Below are positions 29,423-41,048 of a stretch of DNA of 64,000 nt, piece after piece. Under the pieces are notes generated by a model. The model saw only the letters and a list, made by a program, of their open reading frames with translations. It was not told the origin of the DNA and made no database searches. Each line of letters starts with the position of its first letter. Positions within the stretch are counted from its first letter, which is position 1. A program made the position numbers and the translations under genes. The stretch is taken from NCBI GenBank assembly GCA_016795245.1, contig JAEUIA010000003.1:1-64000 (forward strand), in the 5' to 3' direction. Origin of the DNA: Planctomycetota bacterium (GTDB lineage Bacteria; Planctomycetota; UBA1135; GCA-002686595).

Positions 29423-31993
29423 TCAGTCTTCGGACTCTTCGCGCACGGCCTCCGCCTCGCGTCCGGCTTGATCGGCCTTGGCTTTGGCCTTCGCGGCGCG
29501 ACGGACAGCCCGTTCGTGGGCCTCGGCCGCGTTCTCGTGCGCGAGCTCCAGTGCAGCGATCGACTCGACGTCGGCGTTCTTCACACGCGCGCGCTCCAGC
29601 TCCTTGACAGCCTTCGCCAACGCCTCCGAAGCCTCGACAGCTTCCTTCGCCGTCTTCGCCGCGACGACCGAGTACGAGTCAGCGGCGTCCATCGCCTCGG
29701 CGATGTCTCCGTGCGGGCCCTCCTCGGGGCGCGCATCGAGATCGATGTCCTGGGCCGCGAGGACGAGCGCGCTCATCGGCAGCACTTCGAGCAGCGACGA
29801 GAGCGTCACCCCAAACCCGCCGACCAGCGAATCGCCGCGTAGACGGAACGGCAGGAACACGATCGATGCTTGTGCGGAGCGCGTCGAGATCATGCGTTCG
29901 TTCACGTTGTCGACGACCTCGGGATAGGCTTCGATGCGCACATCGATCAGCATCGCGGTCAAACGTGCAAGGGTCTGCTCATGTGTCTCGTCAGGTTTGG
30001 GGGCCGCGAAGAGCCGGATTCTGGCTCGTTTCCAATCTTCGTCCCGCGTCATCAAGTAGGCGAAGAGCAGCATCAACGGGCCGCTGGCGTCCTCCTCGAA
30101 CCAGACGTCGATCGTGCGCTTCTTCCCAGGCATCTGCGTCAATGCAGAGAGGTCTTCGTCCGTGGCTTCGAGCAGGACGATGTTGCAGTCGCGTCGTCGC
30201 GCGTGCTGCAGGTAGGTGCCGAACGACTCCAGCCCGGGCGGACTGTCCGACCGTGGGTGCCGATCGAACCAATTCATGAGCACGGTGTTGGGATGGATCG
30301 GTCCGAGGCCTTGGGACTGCAACAGCACGGACAATCCCGAAGAGAGATCCGGCGTGGCTACAACTAGAGGGAAGGCCTCGATTTCAGCGCGTTCGATGTC
30401 CGCCTTGAGTTCGTCTTCAGCCGCTTCGCGCTCCCTTTCCATGCGCGCGCCTTGTCCGGGCAAGAGTTTCACGACCGTGGTGAAGCCTGCGCCTCCTTCG
30501 ATCCACGACGCGAAGCGCATCAGTCGTTCTCGTCGCGCAACATCGTTGGTGAACACCAACAGCACGGGACGCCAGTCGCGCGGGTGCCACATCTCGTCGG
30601 CGATCCCGTGTAATTCTTGACGGATGCGCTGGAAACGGCTGGAGCGCCTCCCGTCCGCCCAGCGCGAGATGTCACTGCGACGGTCCACGTATTGGAAGAT
30701 CGCGTACAGGATCGCGGCCGAGATCGCTGCCGCGGTCGGGTCGAGAGCGACCATCGCGATGAGGCATCCCACCGCGCCCAGCAACGAGAGGCGCGGGTGG
30801 AACCAGCGAAAACGCGGCCGGAAGTACGGGCTGTTCGACCTGGCCTCGACGTACGTGGCGTAGTTCAGCAGCCCGTACGAGATCAGGAAGAACATCGAGA
30901 CGACCGGCGCGACGATGTTCAGGTCGCCGGCCCAGATCGTGGCCAGTGCGATCGCGAGGGAGAGCAAGACTCCGCGGCGCGGGTTGTTCGTCGCTCCGCT
31001 GCCCTTTGCAAAGATGGAAAGCAGCGGAAAAATGCGGTCGGATGCGAGCGATTGCAGGATCCGCGGAGCGCCCATGAACGACGCCAGGGCCGATGAAAGC
31101 GTGGCCGCGATCACGCCCGCGTCCGCCAACCAGCTGACCTTGGACACCTTCCACATCGCGTCCGTCTCGGTCGCGAGGCTCGCACCCGGCAGGGTCGCGG
31201 CGAACACGACGGCCACGGCGAAATAGACCACGGCCGAGATTCCGACGGCGAGGAACGTGCCGCGTGGAATGCTCTTGCCCGCGTCGGCCAGGTCGCCGGA
31301 CATGCTCACGCCTTGCGTGAACCCCGTGACCGCCGGGAAAAAGATGGCGAAGATGGCCCAAAACGGCAGGTCGCCGGCCGGCGCCCAACTGTCGGCCAGC
31401 AACGCGGAGTCCCAATGCTCAGTCGCGCCGATGAAGAACGAGACGAGGCCCGCGCAAAGCGCGATCATCACGCCGTACTGGAAGCGCGTGGCCCAATCGG
31501 ATCCTAGCCAGGCAAACACGAAGAGCACGACGACAGCGCCCGCCGCGACCATCTGTGGATGCGCGAAGTCATAGTTGGCCAGGATTGCGGATGTGGCCTC
31601 GCCGAAACCGATGGCATAGAACGCGATCGAAACGGCCTGTGCCAGGAATAGCACGATGCCGATCGACGCTCCGAACCCGGGGCCGAGCGTGCGCGAGATC
31701 AGGTAGTAATCGCCGCCCGCTCCGACGCGCAGATTCGTTGCCACGGCGGAGAGCGAGATGCTCGTCAAGATCGAGATGCCGTTGGCGATCGCGATGATGA
31801 TTAGCGCGCGGCCGAGTCCGGCCTGGCCCACGACATACCCGAGTCGCAGGAAGAGGATGATTCCCAGGATCGTGAGGACGCTGGGCGTGAAGACGCCGGC
31901 GAACGTGCCGAGGCGGCCTCCCTGCTGCGGCGCTTCGGTGGTGGACAGTTGCCTGGCGGCCGGCGCCTCTTCGGGTTTGGGTGCTGCGCTCAA
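29423..31993 (-). CDS. SLC12-like cation-chloride cotransporter / APC permease
   Basis: An 856-aa protein with a TTG start at 31993. The membrane domain (about 27-430) contains GTFAGVFTPSVLTILGIILFLRLGYVVG and MSGDLADAGKSIPRGT, characteristic of the SLC12 cation-chloride cotransporter branch of the APC superfamily. A large cytosolic C-terminal domain follows, ending in a long coiled coil (residues about 790-850, rich in EALAKAVKELERARV and AAKAKAKADQAGREAEA). Likely role is electroneutral K/Na-Cl movement and volume control. It is followed 100 bp downstream by the antiporter, on the same strand. Confidence 0.85.
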   Translation of the reverse strand: MSAAPKPEEAPAARQLSTTEAPQQGGRLGTFAGVFTPSVLTILGIILFLRLGYVVGQAGLGRALIIIAIANGISILTSISLSAVATNLRVGAGGDYYLISRTLGPGFGASIGIVLFLAQAVSIAFYAIGFGEATSAILANYDFAHPQMVAAGAVVVLFVFAWLGSDWATRFQYGVMIALCAGLVSFFIGATEHWDSALLADSWAPAGDLPFWAIFAIFFPAVTGFTQGVSMSGDLADAGKSIPRGTFLAVGISAVVYFAVAVVFAATLPGASLATETDAMWKVSKVSWLADAGVIAATLSSALASFMGAPRILQSLASDRIFPLLSIFAKGSGATNNPRRGVLLSLAIALATIWAGDLNIVAPVVSMFFLISYGLLNYATYVEARSNSPYFRPRFRWFHPRLSLLGAVGCLIAMVALDPTAAAISAAILYAIFQYVDRRSDISRWADGRRSSRFQRIRQELHGIADEMWHPRDWRPVLLVFTNDVARRERLMRFASWIEGGAGFTTVVKLLPGQGARMEREREAAEDELKADIERAEIEAFPLVVATPDLSSGLSVLLQSQGLGPIHPNTVLMNWFDRHPRSDSPPGLESFGTYLQHARRRDCNIVLLEATDEDLSALTQMPGKKRTIDVWFEEDASGPLMLLFAYLMTRDEDWKRARIRLFAAPKPDETHEQTLARLTAMLIDVRIEAYPEVVDNVNERMISTRSAQASIVFLPFRLRGDSLVGGFGVTLSSLLEVLPMSALVLAAQDIDLDARPEEGPHGDIAEAMDAADSYSVVAAKTAKEAVEASEALAKAVKELERARVKNADVESIAALELAHENAAEAHERAVRRAAKAKAKADQAGREAEAVREESED

Positions 31994-32093
31994 TGCAAAT
32001 TGGCTCCGCGAGTGTGTTGCCCTGCCGGATCGGGGAAGGCGGGCGCAGGCATTCTAGTGGCCGAGCAGGCTCACCGCGTCATGCAACGCACGA

Positions 32094-33269
32094 TCACGTC
32101 GGGTTGTGCGGGGATTCCTCGACCAGGAGTGCGTCCTCCTCTTCGGGAACCCGCGTACGGAAGACGAGCCCAGGGATGAGCGAATTCAGGATCGCGTACA
32201 CGACCAGACCGCCGAAGAGCGTGGAGCCGATTTGGAATTTCTCGCGCAGAATCCCGGCGATGACGAGCGTGAAGACCAAGGTCGGCAACATCGGCATCCC
32301 GACGAGCATGCTTTCGCGCAAGCCCTCGCCGAACACGACTCGACGATGGAGCCAGATGGGGATCAGTCTGAACGAGATCCCGCAAACGGCGAAACTCAGA
32401 CCCACACCGAGCGCAGCCAGGCTGAAATCTGCCTGGCGCAGGTTCAATCCGGCGTTGAAGAAGTAGAAGGGCACGAAGAGAGACGAGAAAGCTTCGACTG
32501 AACTCAGCATCTTCTCCGACGCCATCGCCGGCAGATGCAGGCGCAGTCGCTGCGCCGCCATGCCGACTACGAACGCGCCGACCAGGTAGTAGACGCCGAG
32601 TTCGTACGTGATCACGCCGCAGGCCACCGCGACCATCATCAAGAACGCGAACTCGGACTTGGGCGCGTAGGGGAGGATCAGCTTGGCGAAGAGCCGGAAC
32701 AGGAACGGCAGGAAGCCGATCATGCCGACCAGGATCAGCGACGAGAGGCCCAGGCCTTGCGCAGAACTCGACTGCAGCGCAACGAACAGCACGGCCAGCG
32801 CCACGAGTTCGGTGGCGATCGCTTTCGATTTGATCCAGAAACGCGCCTTTTCAGGCAGATTGAAGCCGTCGAGCGCATCCAGGATGAATCCGGTGGACGG
32901 GGTCAGGAGCGCAAGGGCGATCAGTGTCGAAGGGCGAATCGAGAGATCCAACCACCACACGAGGGCTGCCGCCAACAGTGCGAGGCTGACCACCTGGATG
33001 GCCAGATGTTGCAGCAAGATCGTCGAGTTGTGGCGCAGCTCACGAAACTCGACGTCCAGTCCGGCGAACAAGAACAGCGAGACGATGCCAAGCGTCGCGA
33101 GGAACTTGATCGTGACGTCGCCCTGGAAATCGTTCGGCAGGTAGCCCAGTTGGAGCGCGCAGATCGCGCCCATGGCGAAGCTCGTGATCGCTGTCGGGAT
33201 ACGAAAGCGCTGCAGTACGCGCGGCGCCACGAACAAGGCGAACAACAGGATCAGGAACGAATAATGCAT
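32094..33269 (-). CDS. CPA2-type cation:proton antiporter
   Basis: A 391-aa membrane protein with 10-12 spans and no C-terminal TrkA-N domain. LIALALLTPSTGFILDALDG and KAIATELVALAVLF match the CPA2/KefB-type ion-exchange core. Proteins of this family exchange Na or K for protons. It is 11 bp downstream of the porin gene and on the same strand, so the two are probably co-transcribed. Ion specificity is not decidable here. Confidence 0.85.
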   Translation of the reverse strand: MHYSFLILLFALFVAPRVLQRFRIPTAITSFAMGAICALQLGYLPNDFQGDVTIKFLATLGIVSLFLFAGLDVEFRELRHNSTILLQHLAIQVVSLALLAAALVWWLDLSIRPSTLIALALLTPSTGFILDALDGFNLPEKARFWIKSKAIATELVALAVLFVALQSSSAQGLGLSSLILVGMIGFLPFLFRLFAKLILPYAPKSEFAFLMMVAVACGVITYELGVYYLVGAFVVGMAAQRLRLHLPAMASEKMLSSVEAFSSLFVPFYFFNAGLNLRQADFSLAALGVGLSFAVCGISFRLIPIWLHRRVVFGEGLRESMLVGMPMLPTLVFTLVIAGILREKFQIGSTLFGGLVVYAILNSLIPGLVFRTRVPEEEDALLVEESPHNPT

Positions 33270-33280
33270 GCTCTGTCAGC

Positions 33281-34606
33281 TCAGAGCGAGACGGTCATGC
33301 GCAGCGTGAGAACCCAGGCATCATCCAGCGAACTGTCACCGCCCGGATTCCTGATGTACTGAATGTCCGGCTTGATGCGCACTCCAGGCACGAGTTGTGC
33401 ACCGTAGAACAGCTCGATCGCCGTCTCCGAACTCGCAGTGAATCCGGCTCCGCTCGCTGAAGACGTCTCGCCCCAGCTGACGCCGAGGCCCAGCGTGTCG
33501 TGATACTGGGGCAGGAACAGGTCCGATGTGGTCAATCCGAGGCCGACATGATTCTTGATCGGCGCGACATCCCCGTCGGCAGTTCCAAGCTGCATGAACG
33601 TGTTGAGCGCGCGTCCGTCGACGTCGATGCGCTGCTCGATCACCGAGTAAAATCCGCTCGTGCCGTCATCGGTTCCACCGTCGAAACGAGCGAAATTTCC
33701 GGTGTGTTTCCACGCGCCGATCGAGACGTTGCCCACAGGAGTCTCGGCGTCCTGCCAGGCGTACGTGCCCTGCGCGATCATGAATGCGTCGCCGGGTCGT
33801 TCGAATGTGCTGCCCAGCCCGTGCAGTCCGGTCTTCACTCCGGCGCGCCCTGCGCCGTCGAAGAGTCCGGCGCTGACACTCAATGCTGAAGTGAGCTTGT
33901 GCTCGACAGCGGCGCCGAACGCCGGGTCCGGATACGTCGGCAGGCCCAGGATCGTCGGACTGTAGCCCATCGAGGAATGAATGAAGTGTGAAGCGTTGAC
34001 CGATCCCGCGAACATCGAGTTCGCATCGATCTTGCCGATGCGAACGAGTGTTTCACCTTCGTGCCAGGAGTGCTGGTACCACAGGCGATTGATCTGCAAG
34101 CGGTCCTCGACGGCATCGATGTTCGAGTAGTTCTGAAGCACACCGACTTCGCCTGATCCGTTGTCGCCCGTGATGCCCTGAACACCGACGACCCACTTTC
34201 CGCCTTCGTATCCCATCGCGCGCGCCGAGTCGATCGAGAGGACGACGTCGAGCAACGCGCGCATCGCAGTTGAGCCGGCATCTGCGCCTCCCGAAGGATG
34301 TGCGGACGAATCGACCGTGAGGTAGGCCTCGAGCGTGTAACCGGCATCGTGCCATTGACGGCGCAAGTCCCCGACTTCGGGCACGAGCCACGACGTCCAC
34401 TCGGCCGGGACATCGATCGTCGGGTCCGTGCGATCATGACGCCGAAACTCTTCGGTATCGTCCGTCGTGTGAACCGGTTGACGTGCCTTGTCAGTGGCCG
34501 GCTGTTGAGCCGCCGCGGGCAAAGTGCAGAGGGGCCCGAGAAGAATCGCAGCAGGAATCGCCCCGAGGCGAAACCTGAACCTCGAGGACGGAAGCGTGGA
34601 GTTCAT
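33281..34606 (-). CDS. OprB-family carbohydrate-type porin
   Basis: A 441-aa protein with a signal peptide (RFRLGAIPAAILLGPLCTLPAAA). A beta-barrel with repeated aromatic/hydrophobic strands follows (LEAYLTVDSSA, KWVVGVQGITG), with terminal V-x-L-x-M-x-V-S-L-type residues. DRLQINRLWYQHSWH and the pattern match OprB-type porins, which pass sugars and other small solutes across an outer membrane. It implies a diderm envelope. It precedes the antiporter in the same transcript. Confidence 0.85.
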   Translation of the reverse strand: MNSTLPSSRFRFRLGAIPAAILLGPLCTLPAAAQQPATDKARQPVHTTDDTEEFRRHDRTDPTIDVPAEWTSWLVPEVGDLRRQWHDAGYTLEAYLTVDSSAHPSGGADAGSTAMRALLDVVLSIDSARAMGYEGGKWVVGVQGITGDNGSGEVGVLQNYSNIDAVEDRLQINRLWYQHSWHEGETLVRIGKIDANSMFAGSVNASHFIHSSMGYSPTILGLPTYPDPAFGAAVEHKLTSALSVSAGLFDGAGRAGVKTGLHGLGSTFERPGDAFMIAQGTYAWQDAETPVGNVSIGAWKHTGNFARFDGGTDDGTSGFYSVIEQRIDVDGRALNTFMQLGTADGDVAPIKNHVGLGLTTSDLFLPQYHDTLGLGVSWGETSSASGAGFTASSETAIELFYGAQLVPGVRIKPDIQYIRNPGGDSSLDDAWVLTLRMTVSL

Positions 34607-34703
34607 GGCGGGAGACCATGACGACGCCCGGGCTCCCGGTCAAGCACGGCCGACGATCAGCCCGCGCGTGCATCGGCGCGACGGATGCGGCAAACTGTGG
34701 CTC

Positions 34704-34934
34704 ATGACCGGACGCCGAATTGCAGCCGTAGTTGCCCTTGCGTTGTTGCTGACATTCGTGGTCATGAACCGCGAAACGTCGCGGGTGTGGTTCTTCGGGA
34801 TTCGTGCCGAAATGCCGTTGGCGTTCGTGTCCATCGTCTCGGCTCTCCTGGGTGCGGCGGCGGGCTGGCTCTTCGCGTTCGTTCGCCCGCCCAAGTTGCG
34901 CTCTGAGGGGCGCGTCGGAGACCAGAAACAGTAG
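34704..34934 (+). CDS. LapA-domain (DUF1049-type) small membrane protein
   Basis: A 76-aa protein with two membrane spans (about 6-20 and 37-60) separated by FFGIRAEMPLAFV, as in the LapA/DUF1049 family. C-terminal KLRSEGRVGDQKQ is cytosolic. The family in E. coli (LapA) works with the tetratricopeptide protein LapB in lipopolysaccharide assembly, but no lapB lies beside it here. It is 35 bp upstream of the MscS-like gene and divergent from the porin. Confidence 0.8.
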   Translation: MTGRRIAAVVALALLLTFVVMNRETSRVWFFGIRAEMPLAFVSIVSALLGAAAGWLFAFVRPPKLRSEGRVGDQKQ

Positions 34935-34968
34935 TCACTCCGGAGTGTGCTACTCCTGCACCTCCGTC

Positions 34969-35862
34969 ATGGAATTGAATCAGATGGCCCTCATCGAGTG
35001 GAAAGACCTGGTCGAGTACGCGCAGAAGACGCTGTTCACGCTGGGCACCACGCCCGTGTCGATGATGACACTGGTCCAGGTCCTCATCGTCATCATCGTC
35101 GCCGTCGTGCTGGGGCGCGCGGCGCGCATGGCGTTGCGCATGCGCATCCTCGCGCGGACGAGCATGGACGAAGGCATGCGGTACGCCCTGGCGCGCATCG
35201 TGGGCTACATCGTGCTCTCGATCGCACTGATGGTCGGGCTGTCGTCGGTCGGTATCGACCTGAGTTCATTGACGGTGCTCGTCGGTGCGCTTGGTATCGG
35301 CATCGGATTCGGTCTGCAGGGGATCATCAACAACTTCGTCAGCGGACTGGTGATCCTGTTCGAGCGCCCGTTTCAAGTCGGACATCGCGTGGAGGTCGGC
35401 GACACGGCCGGGCGCGTCGTGCGCATCGCCGCGCGCAGCACGACGATCGTCACGAACGACAACATCGCGCTGATCATCCCGAACGCCGACTTCATCACCG
35501 GCAAGGTCGTCAATTGGAGTTTCGGCGGCGACCGGCGCGTGCGCTTTTCGTTCCCTGTGGGAGTGTCGTACTCCAGCGACCCGCGCCTCATCGAACGTCT
35601 GCTGCTCGAGTGTGCCGCAGCCAATCCCGACGTACTCGCGAATCCGCCGCCCGACGTCCTATTCACGCGCTACGGCGACAGCTCCATCGATTTCGACTTG
35701 AGGGTGTGGACCGAAACCGAATACGAGCGCCCGCCGGTCTTGGCTAGTTCGCTGTACTTCCAGATCTGGGAAGCGTTCAAGAAGCACGACATCGAGATCC
35801 CGTTCCCGCAGCGCGATCTCCACATCAAGGAACCGGTGCGGGTCGAGATGACCGCCAAGTAG
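34969..35862 (+). CDS. Small-conductance mechanosensitive channel (MscS family)
   Basis: A 297-aa protein. Two or three spans precede the pore helix region GALGIGIGFGLQGIINNFVSG and the cytosolic beta domain RPFQVGHRVEVGDTAGRV, which is the MscS signature. It opens on membrane tension to release solutes on osmotic downshift. The length is near E. coli MscS. A second in-frame ATG lies at 34984. The adjacent porin, antiporter and SLC12-like genes suit an osmotic role for this stretch. Confidence 0.92.
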   Translation: MELNQMALIEWKDLVEYAQKTLFTLGTTPVSMMTLVQVLIVIIVAVVLGRAARMALRMRILARTSMDEGMRYALARIVGYIVLSIALMVGLSSVGIDLSSLTVLVGALGIGIGFGLQGIINNFVSGLVILFERPFQVGHRVEVGDTAGRVVRIAARSTTIVTNDNIALIIPNADFITGKVVNWSFGGDRRVRFSFPVGVSYSSDPRLIERLLLECAAANPDVLANPPPDVLFTRYGDSSIDFDLRVWTETEYERPPVLASSLYFQIWEAFKKHDIEIPFPQRDLHIKEPVRVEMTAK

Positions 35863-35935: not shown

Positions 35936-36463
35936 ATGAAATCCAAAGATCCCATCCTCGACTCGAATCAGCGCTATGCGAAAGAAGGCTTCGTTGGCCC
36001 GCTGCCTCTGGCTCCGGCACGCCACATGGCTGTCGTCGCGTGCATGGACTCGCGCATGCCGATTTTCGCGATCCTCGGACTCAGGTCGGGCGAAGCCCAC
36101 ATCATCCGCAATGCCGGCGGCGTCGTGACGGATGACGTGATTCGTTCGCTGATCCTGTCGCAGCGACTCATGGGCACTCGCGAAATCGTGCTCGTGCACC
36201 ACACCGACTGCGGTTTGACGAAGATCAGTGAGGACACGCTGCGTGCAGAATTGGAGCGCGACACAGGCACCAGTCCGCGCTTCGCATTCGAGTCCTTCCA
36301 GGATCCCTACGCCAACGTGCGGCAGTCAATTCGCCGACTGCAGCAGTCACCCTTCCTCGTCGATCACGACCACATCCGCGGCTTCGTATTCGACGTGGAC
36401 ACCGGACTGCTGCACGAAGTCCGCATGACGGACTCGGCCTCCGCGTCGGATTCGCGCGACTGA
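35936..36463 (+). CDS. Beta-class carbonic anhydrase
   Basis: A 175-aa protein. VVACMDSRM holds the zinc ligand Cys36 and the Asp38-Arg40 dyad. VHHTDCG supplies zinc ligands His89 and Cys92. These are the four hallmark features of beta-carbonic anhydrases, which interconvert CO2 and bicarbonate. GEAHIIRNAGG is also canonical. The length fits the short (type II-like) group. It is the first gene of a run leading into the SET and Pls/PosA genes. Confidence 0.93.
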   Translation: MKSKDPILDSNQRYAKEGFVGPLPLAPARHMAVVACMDSRMPIFAILGLRSGEAHIIRNAGGVVTDDVIRSLILSQRLMGTREIVLVHHTDCGLTKISEDTLRAELERDTGTSPRFAFESFQDPYANVRQSIRRLQQSPFLVDHDHIRGFVFDVDTGLLHEVRMTDSASASDSRD

Positions 36464-36513
36464 ATCGCTGCCGGAAACGGAACCTTCCCCGGAGCGCGCG
36501 GTTTCGGACTGCC

Positions 36514-37029
36514 ATGGAAACCGACAATGCGATGACGAACCTGGACGCACCCTTTGCCGTGCTGCGCGCCGGCCGGGAATCCAGCCTCGTGGCCCGGCGT
36601 CCCATCGCTCGCGACGCGTCGATCCTCGTGCTCGAAGGCGCCGTTACCGATCGCCCGTCCCTGGGCTCGGTCCAGATCGACGATGACCGGCACGTCGAGG
36701 TCCCTGTGGGCTGGGATTACCAGCGCATGCTCGACGAATGTCCCTGGCGGTTCCTGAATCATTCCTGCGAACCCAATGCCGCTTTTCGCGGACTCGAGCT
36801 GGTCGCCATCCGCTCCATCGCGCCCGGCGAGTCCATCACGTTCGACTACGACACGACCGAGTGGGAGATCGCAGCGCCGTTTCGTTGTCATTGCGGCGGC
36901 CGAGATTGTCATCGCAGCCTGGTGCGGGGGTTCAAGCACCTGACCCCGGCCGAGCGTCTGCGCCGCCTTCCCAACCTGGCGGATCACTTGCGTCGTCGCG
37001 TCGACGCGACGACGGGCGAACTGCATTAG
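36514..37029 (+). CDS. SET-domain protein
   Basis: A 171-aa protein. FLNHSCEPNAAF is the catalytic NHSCxPN motif, FDYDTTEW matches the following GEELxxDY region, and RCHCGGRDCH is the post-SET zinc cluster (CxCxxxxC). SET enzymes methylate lysines in proteins. Bacterial SET proteins are mainly described in chlamydiae and scattered others; the target here is unknown. It ends 11 bp before the synthetase gene, so it may modify a product or regulator of that locus, but this is only positional. Confidence 0.88.
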   Translation: METDNAMTNLDAPFAVLRAGRESSLVARRPIARDASILVLEGAVTDRPSLGSVQIDDDRHVEVPVGWDYQRMLDECPWRFLNHSCEPNAAFRGLELVAIRSIAPGESITFDYDTTEWEIAAPFRCHCGGRDCHRSLVRGFKHLTPAERLRRLPNLADHLRRRVDATTGELH

Positions 37030-37040
37030 GCTCTGGGGCG

Positions 37041-40000
37041 ATGTCCCAACCTTCCGGCGGCGAGTCGGGCGCGATCCATGCGCCACAGTTGCTGCACGAG
37101 TTCTTCGAGCGCGCACTCGCACGATTCCCGGACCGAGTCGCCGTCGAGATTCCGCCCGGCCACGAACGCGTCTCGCGATCGATCACGACCTACGCCGAAC
37201 TGGACCGATCTGCGCGCAGCATCGCGGCGGCAATCTCCGTCGCCGTTGCAGGAGAGTGCGTCGTCGCCATCCTGCTGCCGCGGACCTCTCCCGCGCTGTT
37301 CGCGGCGCAACTCGCCGTGTTGCGCACAGGAGCGGCCTACGCGTGCATCGATCCGGCCTTTCCCGATGCGCACGCGGCCTCGATCCTGGCTGATGCGCGA
37401 CCGGTTGCACTGATCACGGATGCCGCAGGGGTCGCACGCAGCGCGCGCATCGCAACGCCGAGTCTCTGCGTCCTGGACGTTGCGCAGTGCACAGCCGCGC
37501 CACCAACGACCTCGGACGCCGCGCGGCCGGCGTGGCTTCGAGCTTCGTCACTGGCCTACGTGATCTACACGTCGGGCACGACCGGACGCCCGAAGGGTGT
37601 GATGATCGAGCACGGTGCGATCGCGAACTTGATCGCGTCGGATGTCGAGCAATTTGCACTGCAGCCGACGGAGCGCGTAGCACAAGGCTCGTCCTCGGCG
37701 TACGACTCGTCCGTCGAGGAAATCTGGCTCGCCTGGTCCGCGGGCGCGACTGTGGTCGTGATGGACGACGACACCGCGCGCGCCGGACCGGACCTGGTTG
37801 CGTGGTTGCGCACTGAGCGCATCAGCGTGTTGTGTCCGACGCCGACATTGCTGCGCTCGACCGGCTGCGCCGAGCCACATGCGGAGCTCCCGCAGCTGAA
37901 GCTCGTCTACGCCGGCGGTGAGGCGTTGCCGCGCGACATCGCCGATCGCTGGTCGAGCGGCATTCGCTTCGAGAACGGCTACGGGCCGACGGAGTGCACC
38001 GTCACCGTGATGCGTGCGCCTGTACGAGTCGGTGAGGAGATCACGATCGGCAAGGCCGTGCGCGGCAGTCGCGCGCACGTGCTCGACGAGGATGCGCACG
38101 AAGTCGTGGGCGGACAAGCGGGCGAGTTGTGCATCAGCGGGCTCAGCCTGGCGCGCGGATACCTGGGCAAGCCCGAACTGACGGAGCAACGCTTTCCCAC
38201 GCACCCCGTGTTCGGACGAATCTATCGAACCGGTGATCTCGTGCGACGTGACGAGCACGGCGATCATCACTACCTGGGACGTATCGACGCGCAAGTGAAG
38301 CTGCGCGGCTACCGCGTCGAGTTGGGTGCGATCGAAGCCGTGATCGCCGCGCAAGCGGGCGTGCGCGCCGCGGTGTGCCGCGTGCAGTCCGCGGGCACGG
38401 CGCAGATCCTGGTCGCGCACGTCGTGCCTACGAGCCCCGAACACGTCCCCGATTTTGCACTGCTGCGCGACGCAGTGCGCGCGGAACTCCCGGAGTACAT
38501 GGTCCCGGCGCGCTTCGCCGTCGCGCAGCAGATCCCGGTGCTCGCGAGCGGCAAGCTCGACCGCGAGGCTCTCCCCGATGTCCAGGGCAGCGCGAGCCGC
38601 GACGCCGCGTTCGAGCCGCGCGATGAACTGGAGGCGCGCATCGTCGCGGCGTTCCAAAGTGTGCTCGGTGCACACGAGCGTCCCGCGCCGGATGCCGACT
38701 TCTTCCTCGACCTGGGCGGCGATTCCCTGCGTGCAGCCGAGGCGATTTCGGTGCTGCGCGCCGAGCCTTCGACGGCAGGGCTGACCGTTCGCGATCTGTA
38801 CGAATTGCGCACGGGTGCGGGCCTCGCGGGCCGCGTGCGGAACACACCTGCGTTCGATTACGAGCCGAACCGAAAGGAACGCCTCGGGCGCCGCAACCCA
38901 GCGCTGGCCACGCTCGTGCACTGCGCGTGGCTCAGCGCGGCGTTGATCCTGTCCTCGACGGCGTTCTATTTGATCGGATTCGAAGTCCTGGCGGCCCTCG
39001 TCCGCCGACTGGATCTGGTCCTGTTCGCGCTCGTCTCGCCGCTCTTGGCCCTCATCGCGACGGCCGGCTATACGCTGCTCGCGGTGCTGGCTACGCTGGC
39101 TGCGAAACGGATCCTGATCGGACGCTACAGTGCGACGCGCGCGCCGATCTGGAGCAGTTTGCACGTGCGCAACTGGATCGTGCAACAGGTCGCGGCGAGC
39201 GTGCCGTGGACATTGTTGCAGGACACGGTGTTCCTGAACTCGGTGCTGCGAGTGCTGGGCGCGCGCGTCGGCCGAAGGGTGCACATTCACCGCGGCGTAG
39301 ACCTGCGCCAAGGCGGATGGGACCTGCTCGAGATCGGCGACGACGCGACTTTGGCGCAGGAATCGGCGGTGCGCCTGGTGCAGGTCGAGCACAACGAGGT
39401 CGTGTTCGGCGCGGTCAAGCTCGGCGCGCGCAGCTTGCTCGATGTCCGCGCGAGCGTCGGGCCCGACGGCGCGCTGGGCGACGATGCGATCTTGGAACCG
39501 CTCGCGTGGTTGCCGCCGACCAGCCGTGTGCCGCACGGTGAATCATGGAGCGGTGTGCCGGCGAGCCGGGCGAGCGTGACGCCGCCGCTCCCGAAGGTCA
39601 GCGACGGTGCCGAGCTATCAACGTTTGCGCACGGCCTGGCCACGTTCGGCGCGCGCAGCTTGCGCATTTCGGCTGCGGTGTGGATTCCTTTGATCGCGCT
39701 GGCAGTGCTTTCGGTCGTCGTCGCGGATCTCGACGCCGATGCAGTATTGGCCTTCCTGTTCGAGTCCGATGCGTCCTTGCGCGGCCTGGCTCTGGCGCTG
39801 TTGCTCACGGTCGCGTCCGCACCCCTCGCAGTTCTCGCGGGCGCGCTCGTGTGCCGAGCTCTCGGGCGCGTGAAGCCGGGCGTGATCTCGCGCTGGAGCT
39901 TCGGCTACCTGCGCGTGCTGGCGAAGACCGACATGGTGCAAGCTGCGGGCAATCTCCTGTCGGGCACCTTGTTCTGGCCGCTGTGGTTGCGTCTGGCCGG

Positions 40001-41048
40001 GATGCGCGTCGGCCAAGGCTGCGAGATCAGCACGATCATCGACGTGGTGCCCGAGTTGATCGAGGTCGGCGACGAGAGTTTCTTCGCCGACGGCATCTAC
40101 CTCGGCAGTCCACGCGTGCGCGCCGGCACCGTGACGCTGGCAGAAACGCGTCTTGCGACCAATACTTTCCTCGGCAATCACTGCGTCGTGCCCGCGGGCA
40201 CACATCTGCCGGCGGACGTTTTGATCGGCGTGTCGACCGTCGCTGACACTGCGCAAGCGCGTCCAGGCACGTCGTGGTTCGGCCTGCCGCCGATCGAGCT
40301 TCCGCGTCGACCACCGGACGACGTCGATCGGCGGCTGACGCACGAGCCTGGTTTCGTGCGCTACACCAATCGACTCGTGTGGGAAAGCGCGCGCATTCTG
40401 CTGCCGATCGTTCCGCTCGTGGTGGCGCTGGCCTGGCTGCGCGTCACAGCCGTGGCGGAGGCGGAGTACACGAGCGCGGCCTTTCACTTCCTGGTGTTGC
40501 CGTCGATCACGTTCCTCGCAGGCTGTGCACTGATCCTCGCCGTGTTGGCGTTGAAGTGGTCGCTCTTGGGTCGCGTCCGACCCGGCGAACACGGACTGTG
40601 GTCGTGCTGGTGCAGCCGCTGGGATTTCCTGTTCATGGCGTGGGGCCAATGGGCGCGCCCTGTTCTCGCGCGCTTCGAAGGCACGCAGATTCTGGCGTGG
40701 TATCTGCGCGCGATGGGTGCGCGCATCGGCCGGCGCGTGCTGCTCGAAGCCGGCTTCGCGCACGTCGTCGATCCGGACATGCTGCGCTTCGAGGACGACG
40801 CGACCGTCAGCTGTCTCTTCCAGGCGCACAGTTTCGAAGACCGCGTCCTGAAGATCGATCACGTCGACATCCGGCGTGGCGCGTGGGTCGGGCAGGGAAC
40901 CGTGGTCTTCTACGGTGCTGACATCGGCGCCGAGTCGCGCGTGGCGCCGCACGGCGTCGTCATGAAGCACGAACACCTGCCGGCGGGCGGCGCGTACGTC
41001 GGTTCACCGCTCGCGCGCGGCGACGGATCCGTTCAGGCGAGCTTCTGA
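37041..41048 (+). CDS. Pls/PosA-type non-ribosomal peptide synthetase
   Basis: A 1335-aa single-module NRPS. The adenylation domain (about 1-510) has the A3 core YVIYTSGTTGRPKG (about 172-186), A5 NGYGPTE, A7 YRTGDLV, A8 GRIDAQVKLRGYRVE and A10 ASGKLDREAL. The carrier domain has LGGDSL with phosphopantetheine Ser562. From about 607 a membrane region with roughly six spans alternates with three hexapeptide-repeat beta-helix domains, closing at WSGVPA, WFGLPP and VGSPLA motifs. This is the TIGR02353 Pls/PosA architecture, as in epsilon-poly-lysine synthetase. The amino-acid chosen is unknown. Adenylation residues, read by hand against PheA, suggest Asp235 and Glu239 positions. Confidence 0.92.
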   Translation: MSQPSGGESGAIHAPQLLHEFFERALARFPDRVAVEIPPGHERVSRSITTYAELDRSARSIAAAISVAVAGECVVAILLPRTSPALFAAQLAVLRTGAAYACIDPAFPDAHAASILADARPVALITDAAGVARSARIATPSLCVLDVAQCTAAPPTTSDAARPAWLRASSLAYVIYTSGTTGRPKGVMIEHGAIANLIASDVEQFALQPTERVAQGSSSAYDSSVEEIWLAWSAGATVVVMDDDTARAGPDLVAWLRTERISVLCPTPTLLRSTGCAEPHAELPQLKLVYAGGEALPRDIADRWSSGIRFENGYGPTECTVTVMRAPVRVGEEITIGKAVRGSRAHVLDEDAHEVVGGQAGELCISGLSLARGYLGKPELTEQRFPTHPVFGRIYRTGDLVRRDEHGDHHYLGRIDAQVKLRGYRVELGAIEAVIAAQAGVRAAVCRVQSAGTAQILVAHVVPTSPEHVPDFALLRDAVRAELPEYMVPARFAVAQQIPVLASGKLDREALPDVQGSASRDAAFEPRDELEARIVAAFQSVLGAHERPAPDADFFLDLGGDSLRAAEAISVLRAEPSTAGLTVRDLYELRTGAGLAGRVRNTPAFDYEPNRKERLGRRNPALATLVHCAWLSAALILSSTAFYLIGFEVLAALVRRLDLVLFALVSPLLALIATAGYTLLAVLATLAAKRILIGRYSATRAPIWSSLHVRNWIVQQVAASVPWTLLQDTVFLNSVLRVLGARVGRRVHIHRGVDLRQGGWDLLEIGDDATLAQESAVRLVQVEHNEVVFGAVKLGARSLLDVRASVGPDGALGDDAILEPLAWLPPTSRVPHGESWSGVPASRASVTPPLPKVSDGAELSTFAHGLATFGARSLRISAAVWIPLIALAVLSVVVADLDADAVLAFLFESDASLRGLALALLLTVASAPLAVLAGALVCRALGRVKPGVISRWSFGYLRVLAKTDMVQAAGNLLSGTLFWPLWLRLAGMRVGQGCEISTIIDVVPELIEVGDESFFADGIYLGSPRVRAGTVTLAETRLATNTFLGNHCVVPAGTHLPADVLIGVSTVADTAQARPGTSWFGLPPIELPRRPPDDVDRRLTHEPGFVRYTNRLVWESARILLPIVPLVVALAWLRVTAVAEAEYTSAAFHFLVLPSITFLAGCALILAVLALKWSLLGRVRPGEHGLWSCWCSRWDFLFMAWGQWARPVLARFEGTQILAWYLRAMGARIGRRVLLEAGFAHVVDPDMLRFEDDATVSCLFQAHSFEDRVLKIDHVDIRRGAWVGQGTVVFYGADIGAESRVAPHGVVMKHEHLPAGGAYVGSPLARGDGSVQASF

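Follow-up and report, generated by a model that had tools for sequence, protein, structure and literature searches.

What a synthetase of the Pls/PosA kind builds in a planctomycete, and what the SET-domain protein encoded next to it methylates, are the questions raised by this locus, which we analysed in a window of 64,000 nucleotides (the whole stretch of DNA under study) and by comparison with related loci and genomes. The synthetase probably builds a chain of one cationic amino acid, and the pairing with SET across many bacteria suggests that either the building block or the chain is methylated. Bdello_A, a published soluble A domain with the identical substrate code, is without a good known substrate; the SET partner suggests candidates, namely S-methylmethionine and N-methylated basic amino acids. 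If the proposal is true, the short list of natural homopoly-amino acids would be extended by methylated or sulfonium polycations, and a function could be assigned to one bacterial SET subfamily.

Locus anatomy and placement of the synthetase

The planctomycete origin suspected in a preliminary description of this DNA is borne out by a match (2.3e-84) to PSCyt2, a family typical of planctomycetes, and by locus L025, whose DNA over the 6 kb compared is the same as that of G368, a genome of the window's own phylum. The features of the locus are as follows.

35936-36463, + strand: short beta-carbonic anhydrase, 175 aa (ORF; Pfam Pro_CA, 9.8e-14)
36514-37029, + strand: predicted SET-domain methyltransferase, 171 aa (ORF; Pfam SET, 3.5e-9)
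37041-41048, + strand: A-T-membrane synthetase of the Pls/PosA (TIGR02353-like) kind, 1335 aa (ATG at 37041, open to the stop)
37104-38576, + strand: adenylation domain, about residues 22-512 (AMP-binding, 22-375, 1.7e-68; AMP-binding_C, 431-505)
38637-38834, + strand: carrier (thiolation) domain, residues 533-598 (PP-binding, 3.2e-8; Ser562 in GGDSLRA)
38982-41009, + strand: predicted polymerisation domain, residues 648-1323 (TIGR02353, 1.6e-109; AlphaFold2 model; Foldseek)

The synthetase frame runs open from its ATG to the stop ending at 41048, and the SET ORF on the same strand ends at 37029, which confirms the length of 1335 aa and the 11-bp gap given in the preliminary description. The carbonic anhydrase does lie just upstream, as stated there; a link between it and the synthetase found no support, and it recurs in no related locus compared. 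Not being conserved beside related synthetases, it was rejected as a partner and is probably a chance neighbour outside the module. Just upstream, at 29423-35862 of the window, are ion and solute genes: an SLC12-like transporter, an Na/H exchanger, an OprB porin and an MscS channel.

The synthetase has a single carrier domain with its phosphopantetheine serine, followed by membrane helices and beta-helix domains. It resembles Pls (epsilon-poly-lysine) and PosA (delta-poly-ornithine) in its A-T-membrane order, in the Asp235 and Glu239 of its code and, in the AlphaFold2 model, in its six membrane helices and three beta-helix domains; unlike them, it scores below the TIGR02353 cut-off, carries the code DSECYGGVTK and has a SET partner. 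Profile positions 23-694 of 695 align to residues 648-1323 with 367 bits, and because this is under the curated cut-off of 423.1, we file the protein, on sequence grounds, as a divergent relative in a clade of its own, spread over several phyla, and not as a TIGR02353 equivalog. The cut-off is reached in 0 of 61 related genomes; L029 from Seinonella, a typical protein of the Pls type, reaches 624 bits, and its polymerisation domain is 27% identical to that of the window synthetase. The earlier label of an epsilon-poly-lysine-type synthetase is therefore right as to the A-T-membrane Pls/PosA architecture and needs qualifying in view of the score, the separate clade and a substrate code not of the epsilon-poly-lysine kind, while the view that the product of such a synthetase is undescribed in planctomycetes was upheld.

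An AlphaFold2 model of the membrane domain (25 sequences, mean pLDDT 90.9) has three repeats of a helix pair plus a left-handed beta-helix, as does the published PosA model. Most of the Foldseek matches to this model were beta-helix acyltransferases and carbonic anhydrases that individually aligned to a small portion of it, and among the matches there was no solved structure covering the polymerisation domain. Two homologous synthetases (L100 and L101) have about 360 extra residues fused at the C-terminus, a part that in L100 matches the DUF418, Acyl_transf_3 and HGSNAT membrane acyltransferases and perhaps serves chain-end acylation. One Gemmatimonadota genome (G551) carries two synthetases of the window's clade, L165 and L166, on separate contigs.

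The genome encodes an AcpS (contig C84) and two Sfp-like phosphopantetheinyl transferases (contigs C55 and C13), so the absence of such an enzyme, which would have refuted the preliminary description, is not seen. The Sfp-like gene on C13 (L143) borders a PKS/NRPS-like megasynthase at its carrier-thioesterase end, in a biosynthetic cluster of its own. In L126, the closest homologue of the window locus, an Sfp-like (HetI-type) phosphopantetheinyl transferase lies directly 3' of the synthetase (L126:4835-5455).

Pairing of the SET gene with the synthetase

In an all-against-all comparison of gene neighbourhoods, SET emerged as the one widely recurring gene near these synthetases. At 16 loci, the window included, it lies just upstream of the synthetase on the same strand, with the nearest possible synthetase start -29 to +51 nt from the SET stop and several pairs overlapping by 4 nt. 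The association extends to whole genomes. Among 61 relatives, SET (called at E below 1e-49) is present in 9/9 genomes with a long synthetase match versus 0/52 others; across 392 genomes of the phylum it is present in 9 of the 15 with a synthetase versus 1 of the other 377, a count that takes in G226, whose synthetase runs off its contig and was recognised by reading, and omits a SET match in G106, placed by the tree outside the clade; and in 249 Gemmatimonadota it is present in 6/7 synthetase genomes versus 12/242 others, with the two genes on different contigs. The Fisher p values of 6e-11 (relatives), 9e-14 (phylum) and 4e-7 (Gemmatimonadota) ignore kinship, and the first two sets share members. 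The SET gene is a conserved partner of the synthetase, and it is the informative neighbour that the preliminary description missed. The pairing is new in the present analysis: no prior report of SET with a CHPA synthetase was found in the literature searched, a search outside which most subscription journals lie.

Each gene also occurs alone. Six synthetases with the exact code (L126, L128, L132, L134, L031 and L167), and one with a single code change (L028), come from genomes in which no SET of the subfamily was found; given the six code-identical cases, SET is therefore not obligatory. Among the genes adjacent to these SET-less loci, no other methyltransferase that might stand in for it was recognised by eye. 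The SET-less synthetases are scattered among SET-bearing ones on the tree, the sister L023 is without SET and has the code DAESYGAVTK, and SET and the DSECYGGVTK pocket appear together. On a quick tree this history reads as a single gain with later losses, to which incomplete assemblies contribute. In 12 sampled Gemmatimonadota (L170-L181) the SET subfamily is present with no synthetase detected, two of these genes lying on contigs over 3 Mb, so the SET substrate need not be the polymer. No DMSP genes were recognised among the recurring neighbours of these SET-only loci.

The substrate pocket and the SET protein

The adenylation domain is of the amino-acid type, as the preliminary description held: it scores 365 bits against the amino-acid adenylation model TIGR01733 (cut-off 317) and about 172 or less against acyl-CoA ligase models, so that the other refuting outcome named there, a grouping with acyl-activating enzymes, is not seen either. 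With the alignment anchored on GGEAL, the ten-letter code reads D222 S223 E226 C265 Y290 G292 G313 V321 T322 K505, that is DSECYGGVTK, in which D222, S223 and E226 are the Asp235, Ser236 and Glu239 aligned by hand earlier and the Glu is the residue for a basic substrate. The code is exact in 27 of the 30 homologues in which all ten positions are readable, and the pocket positions are each 97-100% conserved in the homologue alignment, compared with a mean of 66% for the A-core, which makes a single fixed substrate likely.

An identical ten-letter code is published for Bdello_A, a CHPA homologue from Bdellovibrionales (Patel and Gulick, PMC10522769). Its A domain favoured none of Dap, Dab, Orn and Lys and activated L-arginine modestly, and a larger analogue was suggested as the substrate (PMC10522769). 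In the PosA pocket an Asp binds the alpha-amine and a Glu the side-chain amine, with Thr304 supporting the terminal amine; in the window synthetase Thr304 is replaced by Gly and position 299 is a Tyr, leaving a roomier and more aromatic pocket, which may suit a methylated cation.

Of the proteins with solved structures, BurB lies closest to the SET family. It is the nearest solved chain to the window SET protein by phmmer (1e-10 versus 2e-6), the best PDB match to the family profile (2.8e-20, next 2e-14), and the best match to the AlphaFold2 model (pLDDT 93) both by Foldseek (3.2e-10 versus 1.5e-7) and by VIA Z (13.1 versus 11.7). The model comparison with BurB (Z 13.1) also supports a SET fold in the window protein. 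A SET protein of the clade from L104, searched alone, matched the histone methyltransferase MLL better than BurB, and the SET tree gives BurB no firm place: it is a long branch set beside another long branch and not with the window's clade. Among 20 SET sequences Y112, C85, C127 and C132 are invariant and C125 nearly so; Y112 is the catalytic-region Tyr, Tyr124 in BurB, and the post-SET cysteines are likewise present.

BurB (9L4T, 9L4V) and the window SET protein are both small, stand-alone proteins of the same length encoded with a thiotemplate enzyme, and they have in common the catalytic-region Tyr and the [ST]TE and Q...H motifs. They differ in sequence (about 28-30% identity) and at Trp78 of the window protein (Tyr in two members), where BurB has Ser88, and there are no DMSP genes near the window SET gene. 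BurB turns free methionine into S-methylmethionine (PMC12542666), and it shares its cluster with BurA, whose sulfonium-selective A domain lacks Asp235 and refuses S-methylmethionine (PMC7496086).

A proposed route and its alternatives

We tentatively favour, at somewhat less than even confidence, a two-gene module in which SET would methylate a free amino acid, the A domain would load the methylated cation and the membrane domain would polymerise it. SET, with SAM, would convert the free amino acid to a cationic methylated one, the leading candidate being S-methyl-L-methionine, as with BurB, and the next an N-methylated lysine- or arginine-like residue. Asp222 would grip the alpha-amine and Glu226 the cationic side chain, with Tyr290 and the room left at Gly313 assisting; the A domain would then activate this amino acid and load it onto Ser562, and the membrane/beta-helix domain would join successive units at the membrane to give a homo-oligomer. 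Beneath these steps lie the observed gene anatomy, intact motifs, near-invariant pocket, SET pairing and genome-level co-occurrence, and the finding that BurB is the closest solved protein to the SET family. Three observations favour precursor supply: SET persists in the 12 Gemmatimonadota with no synthetase detected, its nearest solved relative BurB uses a free amino acid as substrate, and SET and the pocket turn up together on the tree. The pairing of BurB with a sulfonium-selective A domain in one cluster is a precedent. Against it, SET was not found alongside the six code-identical synthetases and L028, the SET tree does not put BurB with the window's clade, the SET protein from L104 is closer to MLL, and BurA's A domain lacks Asp235 and does not accept S-methylmethionine. 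Known polymers of the Pls/PosA kind are, moreover, joined via a side-chain amine, and S-methylmethionine has none. Nor do genes for methionine or DMSP recur next to the SET-synthetase module, a methionine operon in one locus (L148) being a single case.

A more specific and distinctly less probable form of this route, which we regard as unlikely, is a poly-sulfonium peptide: SET would make S-methylmethionine, the A domain (Asp222, Glu226, Tyr290) would load it, and a permanently charged alpha-amide homopolymer would result. To our knowledge, a permanently charged homopolymer like poly-S-methylmethionine is of a kind known in no organism.

The main rival to precursor supply is that SET is a tailoring enzyme, because SET can be lost while the pocket stays unchanged: the synthetase would load a basic amino acid bearing no added methyl group, Arg-like or other, and SET would methylate it on the carrier or once the polymer is complete. 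An unaltered code in SET-less synthetases is what an optional SET would leave, the losses are scattered on the tree, SET in the planctomycete sample comes with the synthetase in 9/10 genomes, and Bdello_A does activate arginine. That activation is only modest, however, BurB takes a free amino acid, and SET occurs with no synthetase in the Gemmatimonadota, on the two long contigs among others; we consider tailoring somewhat unlikely. Methylation of a protein lysine, on the synthetase, its carrier or a regulator, for pathway control or producer protection, is a use familiar from most characterised SET proteins, which are protein-lysine methyltransferases, and many of these match the SET profile well. 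BurB matches it better, however, and members of the family consist of the SET core alone, about 170 aa with no further domains, which makes this reading improbable. Slightly more improbable again is a travelling gene pair with no shared pathway, which would accord with the patchy spread over phyla and with the SET-only and synthetase-only genomes; but co-occurrence holds where the genes are unlinked, as in G041, where both are present apart, and in the Gemmatimonadota, whose pairs lie on different contigs, and it is therefore not merely the result of joint transfer.

Two further neighbours were considered as clues to the substrate of the favoured precursor route and set aside. ArgJ near the synthetase is confined to Gemmatimonadota and was not counted as evidence. 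The L148 operon was rejected as proof of a methionine substrate, being one case, about 380 nt from the SET-synthetase pair with a terminator-like hairpin between, and the link is further weakened by L149, of the same genus, which has sucCD-like genes in that place. The operon itself (L148:4414-8557), upstream of the pair, encodes cystathionine synthase/lyase-type enzymes and a fused aspartokinase-homoserine dehydrogenase into which the usual regulatory domain would not fit.
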